Shown here one piece after another: positions 4,554-60,416 of a stretch of 64,000 nt of DNA. Positions within the stretch are counted from its first letter, which is position 1. Each line of letters opens with the position of its first letter. The position numbers were made by a program, and so were the translations under genes. Under the pieces are notes generated by a model, which saw only the letters and a list, made by a program, of their open reading frames with translations, was not told the origin of the DNA and ran no database searches. The stretch comes from Thunnus maccoyii (taxonomy: Eukaryota; Chordata; Actinopteri; Scombriformes; Scombridae), in contig NC_056537.1 in assembly GCF_910596095.1 (NCBI RefSeq), forward strand, positions 1,650,574 through 1,714,573, given 5' to 3'.

Positions 4554-5038
4554 TAGTGGTGGAAAGTAAGTACATTTACTCAAGTACTGTACTTAAGATT
4601 TGACACAATGGATAATATAACAAGCTTTTAAAATACAACACATTGTTAAAGATGAAACCAGTGGTTTCCAACCTTTTTGGCTTTTGACGTCTTACAAAAA
4701 GCAGTGTGTAGTCGGGGTCACATTTCACATGTCTATGAGTTGTTAACAGCACCACCAAATAGTGATTTTTCCCTCTAAACTTCTCACATGCTTTCATTTC
4801 AATAAATGTTCAAATGATCCAATATTTCAGCAAAAATCAAAGATTAGAGAAAAAGTCCAAAAACTGAAAACAGATTTGTGTATCAGAACTTTGTTTTTTC
4901 TTCTTTCCTCTCCCATTAATCATCTCACCACCCCTCAGATTTATCTGCTGACCCTTTGGAGGGGCCCGACCCCTAGGTTGGGAACCACTGGACTAAAGTA
5001 GCTAACTGTATATAAAGTAGTTGAAACTAGCTCCACCT
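4554..5038 (+). mobile_element. Truncated copy of the composite hAT-like element
   Basis: It starts with a mutated terminus (TAGTGGTGGAAAGTAAG) and continues with ACATTTACTCAAGTACTG, as in the complete copy at 59704. It has lost roughly 100 bp of the internal region before GATTTGACACAATGG and stops after GCTCCACCTT. It contains the same nested 332-bp MITE at the same internal position as the other copy. Confidence 0.8.
4659..4990 (+). mobile_element. Nested 332-bp hAT-type MITE
   Basis: The terminal inverted repeats read CAGTGGTTTCCAACCTTTTT on the left and GGTTGGGAACCACTG on the right. This is the remembered style of hAT (Charlie-like) termini. The flanking octamers GATGAAAC and GACTAAAG look like a decayed 8-bp target duplication. 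The element has the same length and almost the same bases as 59930-60261; I see one difference. Confidence 0.75.
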
Positions 5039-16623: not shown

Positions 16624-16822
16624 CTGCAGTCCCCCAATCTGATGAAGAACAAATGACGTCACTTTAGAAAACAAAGTTCCTTTTTTAAATTATTCAAAGT
16701 TTCATAATCTGTTCAGATCTGAAGAAGGTTTAGAAGCTGCTGGAACAGCCTTCAGAGGATCTGAGAGCAGCTGAAAATATACATATTTTTGAACATAAAC
16801 TAAAAACCATCTGTTTATTCTG

Positions 16823-16834
16823 CACTGTAAAAAA
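16823..16834 (+). repeat. Left terminal inverted repeat of the CACTA-like element
   Basis: CACTGTAAAAAA, matching the reverse complement of 24135-24146. Confidence 0.75.
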
Positions 16835-17549
16835 TGACTGTGAAATTTACATAAAAACTATGTAAAATCCCTACAGAAAAGTATTGTAAACTCAAAAACA
16901 TATATTTTTTGTTTAAAGTACAGTGAATTTTTGGAAACTATTAAACAGAATGTTTTTGTTATATTTACAACAACAATATGTGATTACAATCAAATTTATT
17001 TGTTAAAACTACAAATATTGGTAACAAAAACAGAGAAATACTGTAATACTCATAACAAAACAATTTAGTTAATTTCACATGCAAATATTGTAAAAACTAT
17101 AGTTTTAGTCAGTTGTTTTAAAAAATACAAATATATGTAAGTCACTTTACAAGTTTATGCTGTAATTTTAACATGATTGATAAAATGATGCAAATTGACG
17201 TAGGCCTATTTAAAATGTTTTCACAAAAAAGTTTTATTGTGAACCTGAGAGGTTACCTATCTATTTAAATATAAAAAATATACAATTTTAATAACATTGC
17301 ATTTATAATTTAGGCTATTTGTAGCATATTGTAGAGTGTGTGTATAAGACATTCAAATTATTGATATATGCAAAGTAACACTGTTCAGTCCTAATCCTTG
17401 TATGCTTTATGTTTCTTTTAGTCTTTATCATTATCATTTTCACAGGCTAAACAACCTAACAGTGCCACCTCTAACCACTTGTACTTTTACTCTCTCATTG
17501 TGCACTGAGTCCTCCTAATTTTGAAATTTAAAAGTGCGCAGCTGAAGTT

Positions 17550-17737
17550 CGTCTCTGATTGGATAATGACGTGAGGGCGGGAGAAGCGCGAACCATTAGC
17601 CGTTAGCGTCACTAAGGAGCCAGTGTGCAGTCTGCAGAGCAGAGAACGGAGCAGAAATCTTCGGACCACTTCATTTTAAAAGATTTTAGGACAAATCTAC
17701 AAGTTTTTTGGAGGGTCTGTGGCTGTTCAATTGGAAG
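17550..17737 (+). promoter_or_regulatory. Transposon promoter and non-coding first exon
   Basis: This is the only GC-rich island in the 5' third of the element. It has ATTGG (reverse CCAAT), TGACGTGA (CRE-like) and a GGGCGG box at 17561-17579. A likely untranslated exon ends at AATTGGAAG with a GTAAGC donor at 17738. A CTTAATTCAG acceptor near 17867 would join it to the transposase exon. The TTTCTTCTTCAG acceptor ending at 20673 could join it to the SAM-gene exon instead. Confidence 0.5.
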
Positions 17738-17900
17738 GTAAGCTTCATATTTAGGCTACTCTTTTTTCGAGACCAGACGAAAATGTGTGCTGAAAGCTAG
17801 CTAGCTAGCACCAGTCCATATTTAAGACCAGTAACGTTAGCTCAATGTGTGATAACTTAATTCAGCTGAAAAGCACAGGCAAACATTTGAAATCCTAAAA

Positions 17901-20549
17901 ATGATCACCTGCGTCTTTTGTAAAAGCAAATTTGTTACATTAAGAGGCTATGTACTGCATTGCAGAGTACATAGGAATGAGCCTCATTGTCTTTTCAAAT
18001 GTGCTGGCGCCAACTGTAGTCAAACATTTACCACTTACTCAGCTTTCAAGGGCCATTTTTATCGTGTGCACAATGCACCTGCACCGCAAGCTGCTCCTAA
18101 AGCTGTTGTTGCGGATTTAAAATGCGCAGTTTCATTATGTGCCCGCAATTTACACACGGTGAAAGAGCTAGTGTCTCACTTAAATGATCATTTTGGAGAG
18201 GGCAGGTCTGTGTCATGTCCAGTAAGTGGTTGTAAGCATGTGTTTACAAAAAAGTCATCATTTACTTCTCACATGTGTAGGAAGCATAAAGCATGCTCCC
18301 CTGATGGTATTGATGACATGTACAAGGAAACTCGCCTTCAGCCCCCAAATGTCATTGCCAGTACAGATGATTCAGAAAGCACACATGAAGCCATGCCAAC
18401 AGCTAGTGCAGCCAGTGATATGCCAGAGAATGATAGTCAGTCTTATCTCAGAAACATGTGTCTCTTTTACCTTAAACTGCAAGGACAGCTGCTTATTCCT
18501 GCCTCTACTATACAGACTATTGTTGAGGAGATGCAAAATGTGCACGAGTTAGGTCAAGCCTACACAATAACTAAAGTAAGTTCTTTATTAAAAAATGATA
18601 TGAGCCTATCAGATGAAGCAGTCACTAAAATATGTGACTGCATTAAAGAGTCAGATTTGTTCTCTGCCTGTCATCAGGGACAATTAAGAACAACATACAC
18701 CAGAAATCAGACATTCACAAAAATGTTTAAGTACACGGAACCCCAAAAAGTGCTATTGGGAATGGATGAAAACATGACACAAAAATTTGCGTACTACATA
18801 CCAGTGGCAGAAACTCTGAAGAGCTTTTTGCACTCCCAGTTATGGAGGAATGCACAGCCACAACAGTTTGGAGATCCTGATGTAGAGGTTTTTACGGATT
18901 TATATGATGGAAAAATTTTCAAATGTCACCAGTTCTTTAATGAAAACCCTGAAAGCCTCAAACTGATTTTGTATCAAGATTCATTTGAAATTGTGAATCC
19001 CCTGGGTTCTGCTAAAAAGACACACAAAGTTCTTGCAGTTTATCTTTCATTAGCAAATTTACCCATTCATTTGCGTTCAAATACTGATAATATGTTTTTA
19101 GTCTTGTTGTGTGTTGAGAATGACTTAAAGCGTTTTGGAATAGCCAAAGTTTTCTCAGAGTTGTTGGCAGATCTGAAATCCTTGGAGACAGATGGAATAA
19201 ATGTAGATGGAAAAACAGTAAAAGGGGGTCTCTACTGCATTGCTGGGGATAACCTTGGTTCTCATTGCATAGGTGGGTTTACAGAGAACTTCAGCCGCTC
19301 TCAATATTTTTGCAGGTACTGTGACATCACGAGAAGTGAGTTTGAGGCTGATCCAAATGCCTGTGGTCCTCCACGCACCCCAGAGACGTATGACACAGCT
19401 GTTGCTGATCTCCAGGCTGAAAACATCCAAGACGTCAGAGGAATAAAGGTAAACTCTATCTTTAATACCCTTGAGTCTTTTCACGTATCCCAACCTGGTC
19501 TCCCGCCTTGTTTAGGTCATGACCTCTTTGAAGGAGTCTTGTCATATGATCTAGCACTGTACTTGAAGAACATTATAAAAATGAAAAAATGGTTCACATA
19601 CTCACTCTTAAACAGGCGCATCAAACAGTTTAAGTACAAAGGATCTGAAGCACTCACAAAGCCATGTGCTGTCAAACCTGACGGAGCCAAGTTATCAGGG
19701 CAAGCCATTCAAAACTGGAACCTTCTGAGATTGCTACCAGTTTTGATTGGTGACAAAGTGCAAAATCATGAGGATGAAGTATGGCAGTTAGCTCTCCAGC
19801 TAAAAGACATTGTGGATCTTATTTGTGCTCAGAACATTTCCTTGTCCCAGATAGCATATCTTGACATTTTGATCCAAGAATATTTGGAGTTGAGAAAGAT
19901 GATGTTTCCTGAAATTCAACTCAAACCCAAGCACCACTATTTGCGCCATTATTCAGCACTGTCGTTGAAATTTGGTCCATTGAGGAGATTATGGACGCTT
20001 AGGTTTGAAAGTAAACACAGTTATTTTAAAAGATGTGCCAGACACTTGAAAAACTTCAAAAATATTTGTCAAACATTGTCAGAGCGTCATCAGATGTATC
20101 AGGCATATCTTTTAGCTGGGCAAGAATGCAGTAAACTACTGCAAGTGAAGGACAGCTGTGCGTTTTATCCCAACCTCTACAGTGACGCTATTAAACATGC
20201 AGTCAGGGAGTTAGCCTTTTCAGAAAGCAATACCACAGTTGCCACAGATATTCAGTACAAGGGCACTGCATATAAAAAAGGACAGTTTCTTGTGTACAGA
20301 AATGATGAGTATATGGAGTTTGGTGAACTTCTACTCATCTTGATTCAAAATGACACATCTGTGTATGTTTTGATGGATATCCACAAAGGCATCTTCCTCT
20401 CAGAATACCATCTGTATTCTGTGACAAAGGACAGTCTTGGGTTACAATGTATCAACATTAATGACCTGCCTGATTTCTATCCTTTGGTATCATATATTCT
20501 TAATGGATTCCAAGTCATTCCACTAAAACACAGTATTGTGGCAAAATAA
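17901..20549 (+). CDS. Zinc-finger DDE-type transposase of the CACTA-like element
   Basis: One 882-residue open frame. The N-terminus has four C2H2 zinc fingers (C4/C7/H20/H24; C34/C39/H52/H57; C75/C80/H93/H97; C106/C111/H124/H129), likely for DNA binding. A linker follows, then a transposase-like core: LILYQDSFEIVNPLGS with D360, CIAGDNLGSHCIGGF with D450, a CRYC pair at 471-474, HDLFEGV at 540-546, KPKHHYLRHY at 675-684, and FGPLRRLWTLRFESKH at 691-706. D360, D450 and either E544 or E703 are candidates for the catalytic triad. Similar proteins are common in fish annotations as uncharacterised proteins next to SAMD3-like genes (remembered). The superfamily is inferred from these motifs together with the CACTG termini. 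The frame is intact, which suggests recent activity. The start is the first ATG after the probable splice acceptor and lies just before the first finger. Confidence 0.85.
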   Translation: MITCVFCKSKFVTLRGYVLHCRVHRNEPHCLFKCAGANCSQTFTTYSAFKGHFYRVHNAPAPQAAPKAVVADLKCAVSLCARNLHTVKELVSHLNDHFGEGRSVSCPVSGCKHVFTKKSSFTSHMCRKHKACSPDGIDDMYKETRLQPPNVIASTDDSESTHEAMPTASAASDMPENDSQSYLRNMCLFYLKLQGQLLIPASTIQTIVEEMQNVHELGQAYTITKVSSLLKNDMSLSDEAVTKICDCIKESDLFSACHQGQLRTTYTRNQTFTKMFKYTEPQKVLLGMDENMTQKFAYYIPVAETLKSFLHSQLWRNAQPQQFGDPDVEVFTDLYDGKIFKCHQFFNENPESLKLILYQDSFEIVNPLGSAKKTHKVLAVYLSLANLPIHLRSNTDNMFLVLLCVENDLKRFGIAKVFSELLADLKSLETDGINVDGKTVKGGLYCIAGDNLGSHCIGGFTENFSRSQYFCRYCDITRSEFEADPNACGPPRTPETYDTAVADLQAENIQDVRGIKVNSIFNTLESFHVSQPGLPPCLGHDLFEGVLSYDLALYLKNIIKMKKWFTYSLLNRRIKQFKYKGSEALTKPCAVKPDGAKLSGQAIQNWNLLRLLPVLIGDKVQNHEDEVWQLALQLKDIVDLICAQNISLSQIAYLDILIQEYLELRKMMFPEIQLKPKHHYLRHYSALSLKFGPLRRLWTLRFESKHSYFKRCARHLKNFKNICQTLSERHQMYQAYLLAGQECSKLLQVKDSCAFYPNLYSDAIKHAVRELAFSESNTTVATDIQYKGTAYKKGQFLVYRNDEYMEFGELLLILIQNDTSVYVLMDIHKGIFLSEYHLYSVTKDSLGLQCININDLPDFYPLVSYILNGFQVIPLKHSIVAK

Positions 20550-20680
20550 AGTCCAATTAAAGCTGTTAATTGGACTGTTAGTTTGACATTAATATAAGTG
20601 TTACCTGATGCATGTCCCTGTTCTGTTAAGTGTATGTACTGTATATTTTTTCTGTTCTGCATTTCTTCTTCAGTGTAAAT

Positions 20681-23148
20681 ATGAGTGACTCAGGGCGAAC
20701 CTTCCTAGATGTCGCCATCATGGAAGCCCTACCAGAACTTCAAGTAGTAAACAAAAACATCCTGGAAGAGCACTTGCAGTCCATTGGAGTCGAGACGTAT
20801 GATGATCTACGCTTCGTAACGGAGGCTGATTTGATGACAGTATTAAGACCTGTACAAGCCAGAAAGCTTCTTTCTGTTTGGAAACAGAAATGTAAGTAAA
20901 AACACCACAACACACAGCTATTCAACAGCAAAAGCAGACATGGACATTGTGTAATATTGTACAATGTGAATCATAATCTTATTTTTTTGTCATTTAAAGA
21001 CCAAACTCCCGAGAACAGCTCACTATCATCTGTGGAAGCCTCACCTACCCAACTGCTGTCATCGCTCTCTGTTTCACCCCAAAGTTCATCGTCAACCTCC
21101 TCCAGCAGCCTAGGACTTGACACACAGTGGGAAGACAACTTTGAAATTCCATGGAGTAAATTTCCTGAGGAAGTGATGGATTCTTTGGAGAGGGGAAAAA
21201 GGCCAGGCCCAAAACTGAGGAGGCAAATGGTCCGGATTGTTGTGACTGAGATGATGGAAAAATGCCCCCATGTAGGTAAAAAGCATTCAACTGATGTTGC
21301 AAAGCAAATGGTGGCAAAATATCCCAATTCTCTGCAAGATGTAATAGAGGGCGATATTGTTGGAACAGGCTACCATTCCCTTGTAAAACAGCTGCAAAAC
21401 AGAATCGAAAATGTGAGGCGCACTTCAACACCCAAAATAAGAAAAAGAAAACATCAGGCTGATGACTCAGACCACACAGATGAGATCCCATTAGAAGAGA
21501 GAGCAGCAATGCAGGACACTTACGGATGCATTAAATGGAATGTGAAATTTCTGCCCCGTGAAGAAACTCAAGAGAGCCAGCACCAAAAGAAGGAAAAACT
21601 CAAGGAGATGTTCCAACAATCTGATGCCAATCCAGAGGAGGTAAAATGTCTAATGAAGTCCACTTTTTACACACAGCGTCAACATGTCAACCAGGGAAAA
21701 AGTATCAAAAGCCTTCGAGAGGAGTGGCCATTTTGGTTTGACGAACTTGGCATGTCGGTCCACTTCAAGGAACTCACTGGGATTGACCTCAAAGAGACAT
21801 TCACGCGAAATTTGGATTTGAAGGGAAAAAGGCTTCTCAACTACATGACCACAGTTTATGTCACCAAGAGTAATAAGTTCCTTCAGACTTATGCAAGGCT
21901 TCAGAGGATGCGGGGACAGCAGAGTGGCTGCTCAGATGATGTGAAAGAGATGGTCCTGCTTCTGCTCAGCTACTTTGATGAGAAGGAGGAGTCCATGTTC
22001 TTCCATGTAGAAGATACCTGTCTGGCAGAAGAGGTCCAACTGGAGCAAGTGCCTCTGACACCTGCTGTTATTGTCTGTGGTAAGTCTGTTTCATATCTCT
22101 TTTTTTTAATTGCACTGTTTATAGAATCTGTCATGTGAGTGCAGCGCTTATTAATATAACCTGTTAAATAATTTGTTCATAGGACAGTCCTGCTATTCCT
22201 CAACAAGGTACATGCTGAGTCTGGATCGGAACCTCATCAACACAAACATCTCCTCCTTCATTTCTGCATTGTGCCTCATGTTCGGGAGCTACTTCTGTTT
22301 CAACATCCATTATCCATCTGAGCTGGCTTCAACTCTGGAGTTTCTTCAAAGGTGAGTAAACATGGCATGGCATTTCTCAGACCTGTACTTTAATTAAGCC
22401 TAAAATGGCTAAGCTACACAAAAACTGCCTTAATAGTTCCTAGGGCCAAAAACTGCCCCATTGAAACCCATTAAAACCACTATTTTTGATCCCACGTTTA
22501 TCTTGACAAAAACTAATGCATTCCTTTATGTTAAGATTTCGGTTTGGACCACAGGCTTTCAATTTGTAGTTTTTATATTTGTCCATCAGGTGGCACCACT
22601 TTTACCCATTCAAAGCATGCCGCAAAGTTTCACACTTTTTATTGTTTTCTGGAAGAAAAGTGTGTGTGCTATTGATGTCGGATAATGTTGTGTATGTGTA
22701 CTCACTAAATGCATTTAATGGAAATTATTTAGTTTTTTTTGTATAAAAACAGCATTATGTAGAGTTATGTAAACATACTGGCATTGAAAGGGTTAAAAAG
22801 CTAAAAATATAATTAATATTTGATATGTATATTTCAGACTCTAAAAGAGTGACATGTTTAAAGTAGAAAAAAATATCAAAATATACTATTTTTATAGCAG
22901 TTCATGGGAACAAGCCACGTTTTGGCTTTAAAAACATCCACGAAGTAAATAAGTTAAGAACACATGAAGTTTTTTTTTTTAACTGATCAATTAAAATGCT
23001 TAATATGCTTTTATTCTACAGGTGTTTTTTCTCGATAAACCCAGAAAAAGGAACTAAGGTGGAGAATAAAAACTCGAAGCGTCGTCTCAATCTGAACCCT
23101 CGAGTCCTCACCCTGATCCAGGACCTCTCCGATCACGAGTGGCGTTAA
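20681..23148 (+). CDS. SAM-domain (SAMD3-like) accessory protein of the CACTA-like element, four exons
   Basis: Exons 20681-20891, 21000-22079, 22183-22351 and 23022-23148 join in phase with GT/AG borders to give 528 residues. A SAM domain lies at about 5-70 (FLDVAIMEALPEL, HLQSIGVETYDDLRFVTEAD). A serine-rich linker follows (78-110). Next comes a conserved basic block from KRPGPKLRRQMVRIVV (137-152) to KQLQNRIENVR (about 210), then a lysine-rich KIRKRKH stretch. The long C-terminal part ends in NLNPRVLTLIQDLSDHEWR. Fish genomes carry many SAMD3-like genes with this architecture (remembered). Its role here is unknown; oligomerisation through SAM and DNA or transposase binding are reasonable guesses. 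It starts 131 bp after the transposase stop on the same strand. A pyrimidine tract and CAG just before the ATG suggest splicing from an upstream leader. Confidence 0.85.
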
Positions 23149-24134
23149 GCCTAAATATGGACTCCTTCTGTGCACTCTGACTGTTTGTTTGAGAAGAGGT
23201 ACTGTTACTTTTCGCTTTGTTCAATCCACAATGTGTATTATGGTAATTAAGGCACAACGTAATTTTTGTTATTTTGCAAAAATACCTTAACAAACGTGCA
23301 TTCTTATTTTGAGGGGGTACGCCTCTCCACAGATCTGACCTGTAACTTGGCCTGTTGGCATCACGTGATTGTCTCCATGGAGATAGATAAGTTTTATGCC
23401 ATACTGTGGAACATTCAGAATGTAAACAAAATTTTGATTGAATTGGGTTGTTGTTGTGTGCCTGACACTTAAACTTTGTTTGTTAAAGTTTGTTAAAAAT
23501 GTCCAGATTTAAAGAGGCTAATCTTCTGGAGTATCTCAACTTGGATTCAGTCATAGTTCAAGAACCATTATATGTAGCTTCTTTGCATGTTGTATCTGTT
23601 GAAAAAAATGCATCCAGTTGTTTACAACTATTATTGCTGTTAAATAAATTTCCCAAAAGTGATATTTTTCTCTCGTCTTTTCTCAAGATGTATTTTTGCA
23701 GGTTTATACGTAAATTTTACATTATAACTTGATTATTAAAACATAAAAACACAGCATATTTTGAAGAGATTTTATATATAATATACAGAACCATTCCATT
23801 TAAAATGCAGAGTTTTACTGTTGTTCTACCGGTTTAAATTAGTTTTTGTTTGATATTTCCCTGTTAATTTTATCATTTATTGATGCACAATTAGCAGTTA
23901 TTACATGTAAAAAATACAGGAAATGGTCTATTTATATACAACACCGTTATGTGAAATTAACAAAAAAAAATTGTAGACTTAACAGTTTTTTAATGTGATT
24001 CAGCCGTGATTTCATTCACTGTAAATCAATTTACATATTTCGTCTGTAAAGTTGTCTACTGTGCTGCTGTATTTTTTACAGGAATTCTCTGGTAACCACA
24101 GCTGCCAGCGTTTTCCTGTAAAAACAACAGTTTT

Positions 24135-24146
24135 TTTTTTACAGTG
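24135..24146 (-). repeat. Right terminal inverted repeat of the CACTA-like element
   Basis: TTTTTTACAGTG, the inverse of the left terminus. The preceding GCTGCCAGCGTTTTCCTGTA resembles the interior of a very abundant non-autonomous fish repeat (remembered). Confidence 0.75.
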
Positions 24147-24560
24147 TGGCTTTTATGTAGTGTTTTATTATTTTATGGTTTTATTATTTATACTTATTTT
24201 ATTTATCATCATTATTTATTTTATTCTATTTTGTTTTATCAACATTTTAATGTTGATCATTATGGATTATTTTATTTTATTTCATTTTTAATTAACATTT
24301 TACTATTTTACTAATCTATTTATGATGTGCAGTATTTGACAACTTTTTTGTCATTTTTATTGCTTGTATTATCTTTTATTATTTTTATTTTATTATCTTA
24401 ACTACACATTTTTAATGTTTTCTTATTCAATTAACCTTTCTCTAAGTCCATTTTTAACATCCTACGTTTTGTCAGTTGCTTGTGCAGCACTTTGAATTGC
24501 ATTTTATTTGTTTGAAAGGTGCTATATAAATAAAGTTTGATTGATTGATTGATTGATAGA
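24147..24560 (+). repeat. Non-LTR retrotransposon 3' end
   Basis: AT-rich sequence ending in GCACTTTGAATTGCATTTTA, GAAAGGTGCTATATAAATAA and a (GATT)n tail at about 24537-24556. This is the usual 3' terminus of fish L2-like elements. It begins directly after the right transposon end. Confidence 0.65.
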
Positions 24561-30299: not shown

Positions 30300-30645
30300 A
30301 CGGTAAGTGTTTTTTTTTTACTTTTTTTTTTTTTTAACTTTTTTTAACTTTTTTTTTTACATTAAATTTAAAGTAAAAAAACAGAAAGTTGCCTTAATTT
30401 TACATTCAGTAATAGGATGTGTATTATTTGTATTTTTACATAGAATTCAATGTAACGTAACATTCAAGACCATTAAGTAATTGAAAAATCCTGTTATTAA
30501 AACTATAATATTCCATTATATTAATTTAAAGATTACAGCCTTTATTTTATGGTGAATATTTTTAATAAAAATAATTCACAACAACAAAAAAAACCTGTTA
30601 AATAATACAGTAAATTTCTGTTAAATAACTTTTTTTTTTACAGTG
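30300..30645 (+). mobile_element. Right end of a non-autonomous CACTA-like element
   Basis: The terminus TTTTTTTTTACAGTG (ending 30645) matches the right end of the 7.3 kb element. The interior is AT-rich with CTGTTAAATAA-type words. TRIM coding sequence begins at the next base. The left end was not found, so the extent is approximate. Confidence 0.5.
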
Positions 30646-33994: not shown

Positions 33995-35587
33995 TCATTG
34001 CAATACACACATTCCATGGTTGATGAATCTAAAACCATCATTCGGACAGGGACTGAAGTATGGATGAAGTTTCTCAGTGAAGGAGCATCCAGTAAAGGAG
34101 TAGATAGGAGCTGCAGCATCAACATCATAAAAGGAGACCAGACCCTCATCAAAATCCACAAACACCCCCACCTTCTCAGGCTTTGACTTCAGAGAGAGAC
34201 GGACTGGAGGGTCAGCAGGAGCGAAGTACTCACCGGATGACTTAGAACATACAGTCCAGTATCCATTTCCGGGACTCAGAGTGATTCCTCTGTTAATACG
34301 GGTCACCTTTCTAGCCACTCCTAGAGTCCATTTAGACCACCTGTTAACCTGAACCTGGAAGTAAAACCTTCCTGAAGAGAAACCCTGCTTTGATAAGACA
34401 CATCTACAGTCACTAAATTGATGATCATCTCTATCATTAGACTGGGTGGGTCTGGGATGTGCAATATCAGGATCGAGTGTCACATCTACTGCATACTGAT
34501 GGACCTTCTTCAGCTGTGCCTCAAACAGCTTCCTCAACAGTTCAGTGATTGTCTCCTCCAGTTGAGCCACAACTCTCACCACTGTCCCCTCACATGATGG
34601 TGGACGGACGCTGACCTCTGTCCAGTCTTTGGTGGGTGGAGCAACGTTCAGGGACGAGAAGCTTTGAAGGAGCTGGAGGTGGTCTTCAGAGTGTAAGAGC
34701 TGCTCAACCTCAGATCTTGTCTTCTTCAGCTCAGAGATTTCCTGTTCCAGAACTTTGATGAAGTCTTCAGCTTGTTTCTCTGTCTTTCTTTGCTCCTCTT
34801 TGATCGTCTTGATGAATTCAGCCTGGCTTCTCTCAACAGACTCCTTCAAAGCGGTGAAGACCTGAACACCATCTACTATCTCTCTGTCTGCATCTCTTTG
34901 CCTGAGCTCCACTGACTGTGTGATCTCCCAAATTTTTCGTTGTCTCTTCTGTATCATCTCCTGAACATCAGCCTTTGTCTTCCCCAGCTCTGCCTTCTTA
35001 CTTTCATATTCTTCTTTCAGAGGAACAACATCATGTGTCTTGTGGTCCAAAATGGTGCAGAGGGTGCACGCATACATCTGATCGGTTTTACAGAACAACT
35101 CCAGCAGTTTATTGTGCTTTGTACACATCCTGCCTTCCAGGTTCTTCACAGGGCCGATCAGCTGATGTCTCTTCAGGCCTGACAATGTCAGATGAGGCTC
35201 CAGGTGAGTCTCACAGTAGGAGGCCAGACACACCAGGCAGGACTTCAGGGCCTTCAGTTTGGTTCCAGTGCAGACGTCACAGGGAACTTCTACTGGTTTG
35301 GCAGCTTGTTGCTCTGAGCTGCTGCTGCTGGCTTTCTGTTGAGCTGACTGTCTGAACTGAGCAGCCACCTCAGAGATGAAAGTGTTGACCTGCAGCTCAG
35401 GTCTTGTGTTGTAAAACCTTTCACAGATGGGACACTGACACTGGACATTACTATTCCAGTGCTCAGTGATGCAGTTTTTGCAGAAGTTGTGTCCACATGG
35501 TATGGTGACTGGATTAGTGAACACATCCAGACAGATGGAGCAAAGAAACTGATCTTCAGTCAGCAGACAGCAGCTGGCAGCAGACAT
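33995..35587 (-). CDS. Bloodthirsty-type TRIM E3 ubiquitin ligase
   Basis: One coding exon of 530 residues. The C3HC4 RING uses C16, C19, C31, H33, C36, C39, C52 and C55. A serine/glutamine-rich linker follows (about 80-95), then two B-box-like parts (CDVCTGTKLKALKSCLVC; CTKHNKLLELFC with CTLC and DHKTHDVVPL at about 153-190), a long coiled coil (about 190-310) and a PRY-SPRY domain (about 365-530: LDPDIAHP, GFSSGRFYFQVQV, GNGYWTV, VGVFVDFDEGLVSFYDV). Such proteins are cytosolic ubiquitin ligases, many of them antiviral or stress-related in fish. The PRY part lacks about 15 residues found in relatives between the LDPDIAHP block and CRCVLSKQG. The SPRY end is shortened to GFRFINHGMCVLQ. It is probably expressed from the non-coding exon near 36386. 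The substrate is unknown. Confidence 0.88.
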   Translation of the reverse strand: MSAASCCLLTEDQFLCSICLDVFTNPVTIPCGHNFCKNCITEHWNSNVQCQCPICERFYNTRPELQVNTFISEVAAQFRQSAQQKASSSSSEQQAAKPVEVPCDVCTGTKLKALKSCLVCLASYCETHLEPHLTLSGLKRHQLIGPVKNLEGRMCTKHNKLLELFCKTDQMYACTLCTILDHKTHDVVPLKEEYESKKAELGKTKADVQEMIQKRQRKIWEITQSVELRQRDADREIVDGVQVFTALKESVERSQAEFIKTIKEEQRKTEKQAEDFIKVLEQEISELKKTRSEVEQLLHSEDHLQLLQSFSSLNVAPPTKDWTEVSVRPPSCEGTVVRVVAQLEETITELLRKLFEAQLKKVHQYAVDVTLDPDIAHPRPTQSNDRDDHQFSDCRCVLSKQGFSSGRFYFQVQVNRWSKWTLGVARKVTRINRGITLSPGNGYWTVCSKSSGEYFAPADPPVRLSLKSKPEKVGVFVDFDEGLVSFYDVDAAAPIYSFTGCSFTEKLHPYFSPCPNDGFRFINHGMCVLQ

Positions 35588-59703: not shown

Positions 59704-59929
59704 CAGTGGTGGAAAGTAACTAAGTACATTTACTCAAGTACTGTTTGAGGTACTTGTACTTTACTGGAGTATTTCCATGTGATGCTACTTTCTACATTTC
59801 AGAGGGAAATATTGTACTTTCTACTCCACTACATTTATTTGACAGCTTTAGTTACTTTTCAGATGAAGATTTGACACAATGGATAATATAACAAGCTTTT
59901 AAAATACAACACATTGTTAAAGATGAAAC

Positions 59930-60261
59930 CAGTGGTTTCCAACCTTTTTGGCTTTTGACGTCTTACAAAAAGCAGTGTGTAGTCGGGGTCACATTTCACA
60001 TGTCTATGAGTTGTTAACAGCTCCACCAAATAGTGATTTTTCCCTCTAAACTTCTCACATGCTTTCATTTCAATAAATGTTCAAATGATCCAATATTTCA
60101 GCAAAAATCAAAGATTAGAGAAAAAGTCCAAAAACTGAAAACAGATTTGTGTATCAGAACTTTGTTTTTTCTTCTTTCCTCTCCCATTAATCATCTCACC
60201 ACCCCTCAGATTTATCTGCTGACCCTTTGGAGGGGCCCGACCCCTAGGTTGGGAACCACTG
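59930..60261 (+). mobile_element. Nested 332-bp hAT-type MITE, second copy
   Basis: Same termini and length as 4659-4990. The flanking octamers GATGAAAC and GACTAAAC fit a decayed target duplication. Confidence 0.8.
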
Positions 60262-60416
60262 GACTAAACTAGCTAACTGTATATAAAGTAGTGTAAACTA
60301 GCTCCACCTCCAGCAGCTACAACAGTAACATGCTGCTCTAACACTGATGCTTCACTATTAATAATCTAATGATGTCATATATAATAATATATCAGTCAGA
60401 GGGACCAAACCACTAC

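Follow-up and report, generated by a model that had tools for sequence, protein, structure and literature searches.

A very young two-gene CACTA-type transposon in a tuna genome carries an apparent SAMD3-type second gene

Plant En/Spm transposons have subterminal repeats and make a 3-bp target duplication. In maize, Spm is a single unit that is alternatively spliced (PMC1636069). The CMCT clade of transposases, with CACTA/EnSpm, Mirage, Chapaev, Transib and kin, is marked by a signature of DDE, C(2)C and H(3)H residues, by CA..TG termini and by target duplications of 2-5 bp (PMC12730594). Here, we describe an element of the tuna Thunnus maccoyii, located at 16823-24146 of a 64,000-nucleotide stretch of DNA (hereafter the window). 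An initial annotation, made from the letters of the window alone, had seen in it an intact two-gene CACTA-like transposon pairing a zinc-finger transposase with a SAM-domain protein. The two-gene transposon is borne out by 18 full-length copies with the same borders in the genome searched (782 Mb in 54 contigs, the window itself included), and 16823-24146 is confirmed as a full-length, very young two-gene animal CACTA-type transposon. Its borders and target duplication are as follows:

16821..16822, no strand: 2-bp target duplication TG, left copy
16823..24146: element, with CACTG..CAGTG ends
16823..16834, plus strand: left terminal inverted repeat CACTGTAAAAAA; the left 400 bp of the element are found in full at 18 loci
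16823..17472, no strand: left subterminal region enriched in TGTAAA/TTTACA, candidate binding sites
23497..24146, no strand: right subterminal region enriched in TGTAAA/TTTACA, candidate binding sites
24135..24146, minus strand: right terminal inverted repeat TTTTTTACAGTG, the reverse complement of CACTGTAAAAAA; same border in 17/17 other copies
24147..24148, no strand: 2-bp target duplication TG, right copy

The 18 copies, that of the window included, were found at about 100% identity by a transposase search of the genome, in which the best 51 of 312 candidates were scored. Over the left 5,224 bp (16823-22046), 15 of the 17 other copies are identical to the window copy and two have one substitution each, which makes a total of two substitutions in 88,808 bp. 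In a second comparison, made for ten of the 17 copies over 19493-23590, nine are identical and one has the site already counted; from 22047 onward these ten are the only copies compared, with none from 23591 to about 24105. One of the 17 right ends has an extra T. Hence, the borders 16823 and 24146 of the initial annotation are shared by the other copies. A 2-bp target duplication flanks all 18 copies (14 TA, three TG and one CA), and their insertion sites are unrelated. Because of the two changes in 88,808 bp, and at a substitution rate near 5e-9 per site and year, the copies would have diverged over thousands rather than millions of years. No copy of intermediate age stands among the matches listed, where the 18 identical transposases are followed by others of about 73% protein identity or less; an element that arrived recently, perhaps through horizontal transfer, would leave such a picture. 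Apart from its 18 complete occurrences, the left 400 bp has three diverged matches (65-77%), and no shortened derivative of the element was found in this search, which skips very common words. As a side observation, copy L016 (C18:5992849) is inserted directly after a TTTTTTTACAGTG end, and the host repeat of copy L015 ends in ACAGTG; two of the 18 insertions are thus in or beside other CACTG-type sequence.

The second gene (open reading frame 2, ORF2) has four exons on the same strand as the transposase gene, which join in frame to 528 amino acids:

17620..17737, plus strand: putative 5' leader exon shared by both genes, start guessed; consensus 5' splice site GTAAGC from 17738
20681..20891, plus strand: ORF2 exon 1, SAM-like five-helix domain; 3' splice site 7 nt before the ATG
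21000..22079, plus strand: ORF2 exon 2, linker and conserved SAMD3-type core
22183..22351, plus strand: ORF2 exon 3, C-terminal conserved block
23022..23148, plus strand: ORF2 exon 4, ending in TAA
23643..23648, plus strand: candidate ORF2 polyadenylation signal AATAAA

Each of the exons 1, 2, 3 and 4 is present at all 18 intact loci (best 82 of 145 candidates scored), so that the two genes lie side by side between the same termini in every intact copy found in this genome, a pairing that the initial annotation had suggested testing. Among the matches listed, there are 18 further clusters of degraded ORF2 pieces, six of which have a same-strand transposase piece beside them. Six more were read upstream: four have transposase remains (C11:11639957, C19:10093551, C19:29750800 and C19:3090878) and two do not. 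Overall, 10 of the 12 degraded loci with data adjoin transposase remains, and two have none within 2.5 kb; this count leaves out C3:3599196, C1:25531833, C10:24009388, C21:1503215, C11:27569354 and C16:12704932, whose upstream sequence was unread. Another ORF2 piece is found in L032, where a diverged transposase precedes it. A SAM gene regularly found away from the transposase, which would have spoken against the initial annotation, is therefore not what the loci examined present. The coupling at 18/18 intact copies, together with two further transposon families that have a second gene, supports the view that ORF2 belongs to the element, as had been proposed. For the same reasons, ORF2 as host debris was rejected.

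The transposase is encoded by one open exon, with the following features:

17901..20549, plus strand: transposase gene, 882 amino acids, one open exon; 18 intact copies
17910..18287, plus strand: four C2H2-type zinc-finger patterns, recognized by eye; Pfam zf-C2H2 matches in two stretches, below cut-off
18978..20009, plus strand: predicted catalytic region, with residues invariant in three transposase families of the genome
18978-18980, plus strand: D360
19248-19250, plus strand: D450
19311-19322, plus strand: C471-x2-C474
19518-19520, plus strand: H540
19935-19949, plus strand: H679-x3-H683
20007-20009, plus strand: E703
20545..20550, plus strand: AATAAA, overlapping the transposase stop codon

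We also noted an inverted repeat, AGTCCAATTAA..TTAATTGGACT, at 20550-20576, directly after the transposase stop codon and the AATAAA. D360, D450, C471xxC474, H540, H679xxxH683 and E703 are invariant in an alignment with two other transposases of the genome, 32% and 30% identical to this one. Judged by its sequence, the transposase keeps the CACTA/CMC catalytic signature and is predicted to be catalytic. We file the element as animal CACTA-type (CMCT) because of these signature residues, its CA..TG termini (CACTG..CAGTG) and its 2-bp duplications in 18/18 copies. For the catalytic part, Transposase_21 ranks first among the Pfam profiles, at E 0.01 and 15.5 bits, below the cut-off of 28.6 (E 0.027 with the whole protein). 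A sequence search of the PDB with the transposase mostly hit zinc-finger proteins, in every case through the finger region. Other groups were rejected on target duplications. Kolobok elements duplicate TTAA, and the duplications here are TA, TG or CA. Zisupton (KDZ group) has a duplication of 8 bp, and 3 bp is typical of the fungal EnSpm families (PMC12730594), as against 2 bp in 18/18 copies. No relatives were found in the viral contigs scanned.

Two sister families of the same genome extend the comparison. Besides the family of the window element (family A), family B (L033-L036) has an 898-amino-acid transposase and family C is represented by L037; the three transposases are about 30-46% identical to each other. 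Both B and C have a second open frame just downstream of the transposase gene, on the same strand. Two family-B copies, followed to both ends, have termini CACTGTAAAACC and TA duplications (2/2), and the one copy measured is 8,727 bp long. By sequence comparison, the ORF2 cores of A, B and C are related, whereas the heads differ, being SAM-like in A and PB1-like in B and C (Pfam PB1: E 7.8e-5 and 23.0 bits for B, E 4.2e-4 and 20.7 bits for C; cut-off 23.6). In family B the predicted junction of ORF2 exons 2 and 3 is out of frame, and exon 1 and the last exon were used separately. A search with ORF2-B gave 57 matches in 43 clusters, 16 of which, the 12 best included, have a same-strand transposase piece upstream among the matches listed (best 51 of 341 candidates scored, a scope that also applies to the fusions below; 38 chosen transposase pieces were used for this count, not every listed row). 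Two of the 27 remaining clusters were read, and transposase remains were found in both. Between B and C, differences at codon positions 1, 2 and 3 are 0.38, 0.26 and 0.65 for ORF2 and 0.45, 0.32 and 0.60 for the transposase; the pattern of ORF2, like that of the transposase, reads as that of conserved proteins. In a separate observation, three family-B derivatives seem to carry the transposase zinc fingers and ORF2 in one open frame, without the catalytic part: C1:14819367-14820701 (plus strand, 451 amino acids), C21:26872120-26873529 (minus strand, 476 amino acids) and C6:34180540-34181769 (plus strand, 416 amino acids). Their breakpoints differ, and they are deduced from match tables, not from reading of the DNA.

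SAMD3 is a vertebrate host gene that is not known to have a transposase or termini. As a query we used an unconfirmed human SAMD3 sequence of 520 amino acids, set down before the ORF2 proteins of B and C were available. It matches ORF2 of A at E 2e-4, of B at E 2e-9 and of C at E 2e-7; conversely, a profile of the three transposon ORF2s matches it at E 2e-13, and the ORF2-A core compared with it gives a z of 12.4. With the ORF2 profile, neither the reversed human SAMD3, nor 200 shuffles, nor the two transposases were listed up to E 100. In the tuna genome, the human sequence finds only one small piece above threshold. Measured against this unconfirmed human sequence, the matches suggest that ORF2 is of SAMD3 type, in agreement with the initial annotation. 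Going further, we tentatively propose a constant SAMD3-type core with an interchangeable SAM or PB1 polymerising head, the polymer holding both ends of the element, and vertebrate SAMD3 as a domesticated transposon gene; this extended proposal is a possibility that we rate below even odds. A literature search among open-licence papers found none in which CACTA elements are connected with SAMD3 or with a partner of SAM/PB1 type, and the available parts of PMC3485254, PMC5753468 and PMC8945855 hold nothing further on the second gene.

Taken together, our preferred explanation is a young cut-and-paste CACTA/CMC element in which ORF2 acts as an assembly partner via its SAM/PB1 module, a reading to which we give a probability of about 0.65. 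The zinc-finger transposase would bind the ends and cut at the CAC..GTG termini, and insertion at YR dinucleotides, mostly TA, would yield the 2-bp duplications. Upstream of the ORF2 ATG, at 7, 3 and 11 nt in families A, B and C, stands a pyrimidine-rich stretch followed by AG, and family A also has a consensus 5' splice site that precedes the two genes; from these acceptors and this donor we infer, as is reasonable and as in maize Spm, a shared leader spliced to the ORF2 3' splice site. ORF2 would then probably be expressed from a common promoter. Its product may work with the transposase, in binding the ends or in assembly, and may be needed for transposition; it would multimerise via its N-terminal module, SAM-like in A and PB1-like in B and C. 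Both SAM and DIX/PB1 belong to the folds that polymerise head to tail (PMC7614096). Candidate targets exist at the ends, where TGTAAA/TTTACA occurs seven (left) and nine (right) times in the outer 650 bp, for base-shuffle means of 1.2 and 1.0, as compared to four and three times in the two gene regions (means 2.5 and 2.2).

Several observations weigh against this explanation. The enrichment of TGTAAA was measured against base shuffles only, and ORF2 as a DNA-binding protein is a prediction. The SAM label of ORF2 residues 1-70 is below every Pfam cut-off (best SAM-type profile E 0.077, 13.5 bits for a cut-off of 25), the match of this five-helix segment to the SAM fold is middling, and the PB1 matches of B and C are just below the Pfam cut-off. 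The predicted fold of the ORF2 core is of low confidence, with no PDB match at E <= 0.001, and a sequence search of the PDB with ORF2 gave weak matches only, with E above 1. A profile of the B and C ORF2s reaches A only at E 0.042. Regarding coupling, ORF2 pieces C11:10648878 and C10:33227035 are the two without transposase within 2.5 kb upstream, the transposase remnant at C19:29750800 is one short zinc-finger piece, and a diverged left end lies 1.3 kb upstream of the ORF2 piece C3:3599196, which leaves too little room for a transposase. Transposase pieces L028/L031, L029/L030, L036 and L038 have no type-A ORF2 in the flanks examined, and the likeness of L036 to L033 ends soon after the transposase.

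Could the copies be something other than insertions? Their extreme identity, with two substitutions in all when 17 copies are compared over 5,224 bp, is what an assembly artefact or segmental duplications might leave, but the flanks are not alike and a separate 2-bp duplication accompanies every copy. Furthermore, copy L015 (C16:17586155) is inserted within a short repeat that has uninterrupted relatives: its flanks, joined with one TA, are found at 40 listed places, one being its own left flank and 39 crossing the join, the best with 92% identity over query positions 6-193 of 193. These empty sites are relatives of the insertion site within the genome, not the same site in another individual. 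We consider an artefact extremely improbable, and assembly duplicates were rejected on the differing flanks. Even less credible are two host genes caught by chance between unrelated CACTG motifs. Such motifs do recur, as CACTGTAAAAAANGAC has 41 matches in the genome of which only 18 are left ends of the element (13 matches for the reversed pattern), but one and the same unit, with unchanged borders, is present at 18 different sites, which refutes this reading.

The role of ORF2 leaves more room for debate. It may be a passenger, derived from a single capture of a host SAMD3-like gene and without role in transposition: a SAMD3-type host gene exists in vertebrates, gene carriage by transposons is known in general, and the function of ORF2 is predicted only. 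Yet neither the place nor the strand of ORF2 changes among three transposase families, about 30-46% identical, the ORF2 codons of B and C differ in the manner expected of a conserved protein, and the frame is open in 18/18 intact copies, which makes a passenger improbable in our view. An action on the host or on expression (escape from silencing, promoter control or repression) rather than on the ends is also unlikely, although less so than a passenger. Maize TnpA has opposite effects on a promoter, reactivation if it is methylated and repression if it is unmethylated (PMC1636069), SAM domains also occur in transcriptional silencing complexes (PMC7614096), and in the three natural deletion derivatives ORF2 seems to be joined in frame to the zinc fingers, an arrangement that a repressor might have. 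On the other hand, the enriched terminal motifs offer an obvious target at the ends. An assembly partner of the transposase is the reading of ORF2 that we prefer.

Two further features of the window were observed outside the element. At 30600-30645, the minus strand bears another CACTGTAAAAAA end, which stops exactly at the start of a 198-bp stretch that is 91% like 35266-35463. It is probably the right end of another element, inserted into one of two similar host stretches; the left end of this second element was not found. In addition, 4595-5038 and 59866-60309 form a 444-bp direct repeat with 99% identity, 55 kb apart.

The window thus provides a vertebrate CACTA-type element, apparently very recently mobile, with defined ends, a target preference and both genes, which makes the function of ORF2 directly testable. 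A constant core with a swappable, possibly polymerising head hints at the way in which CACTA-type ends might come together outside plants. We suggest that a SAMD3-like annotation in fish may often denote a transposon gene. Where vertebrate SAMD3 came from is a question that a tree can answer.

Judged by the unconfirmed human sequence, vertebrate SAMD3 has a SAM domain, a core and a C-terminal block colinear with ORF2. The subterminal repeats of plant En/Spm have a counterpart in the tuna element, but the tuna duplication of 2 bp differs from the 3 bp of plant En/Spm. Like the tuna element, plant En/Spm encodes two proteins (TnpA, TnpD), one of which is the transposase, and it uses alternative splicing (PMC1636069), as the tuna element probably does. 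Among animal CACTA elements, SmTRC1 (Schistosoma mansoni; relatives exist in Danio rerio) shares the CACTA-type DDE transposase and inverted termini and has an alternatively spliced unit; 2-bp duplications are reported for 7 of its 14 copies, as compared to 18/18 in tuna, and its proposed terminal core is CCC, whereas the tuna termini begin with CACTG (PMC1636069). The zebrafish CMC-EnSpm, also a large fish CACTA-type element, has 'two full proteins' and a terminal inverted repeat, CACTCAAAAAAAT, that resembles the tuna terminus; the second protein is not named in the available part of PMC11202377. The initial idea of a SAM-domain partner as a distinct solution holds in part: a two-protein layout had already been noted for this zebrafish element (PMC11202377), and the SAM-like head is not constant. 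What is new, as far as the papers searched go, is an apparently SAMD3-type partner, of presumed role in assembly, with either a SAM-like or a PB1-like head.

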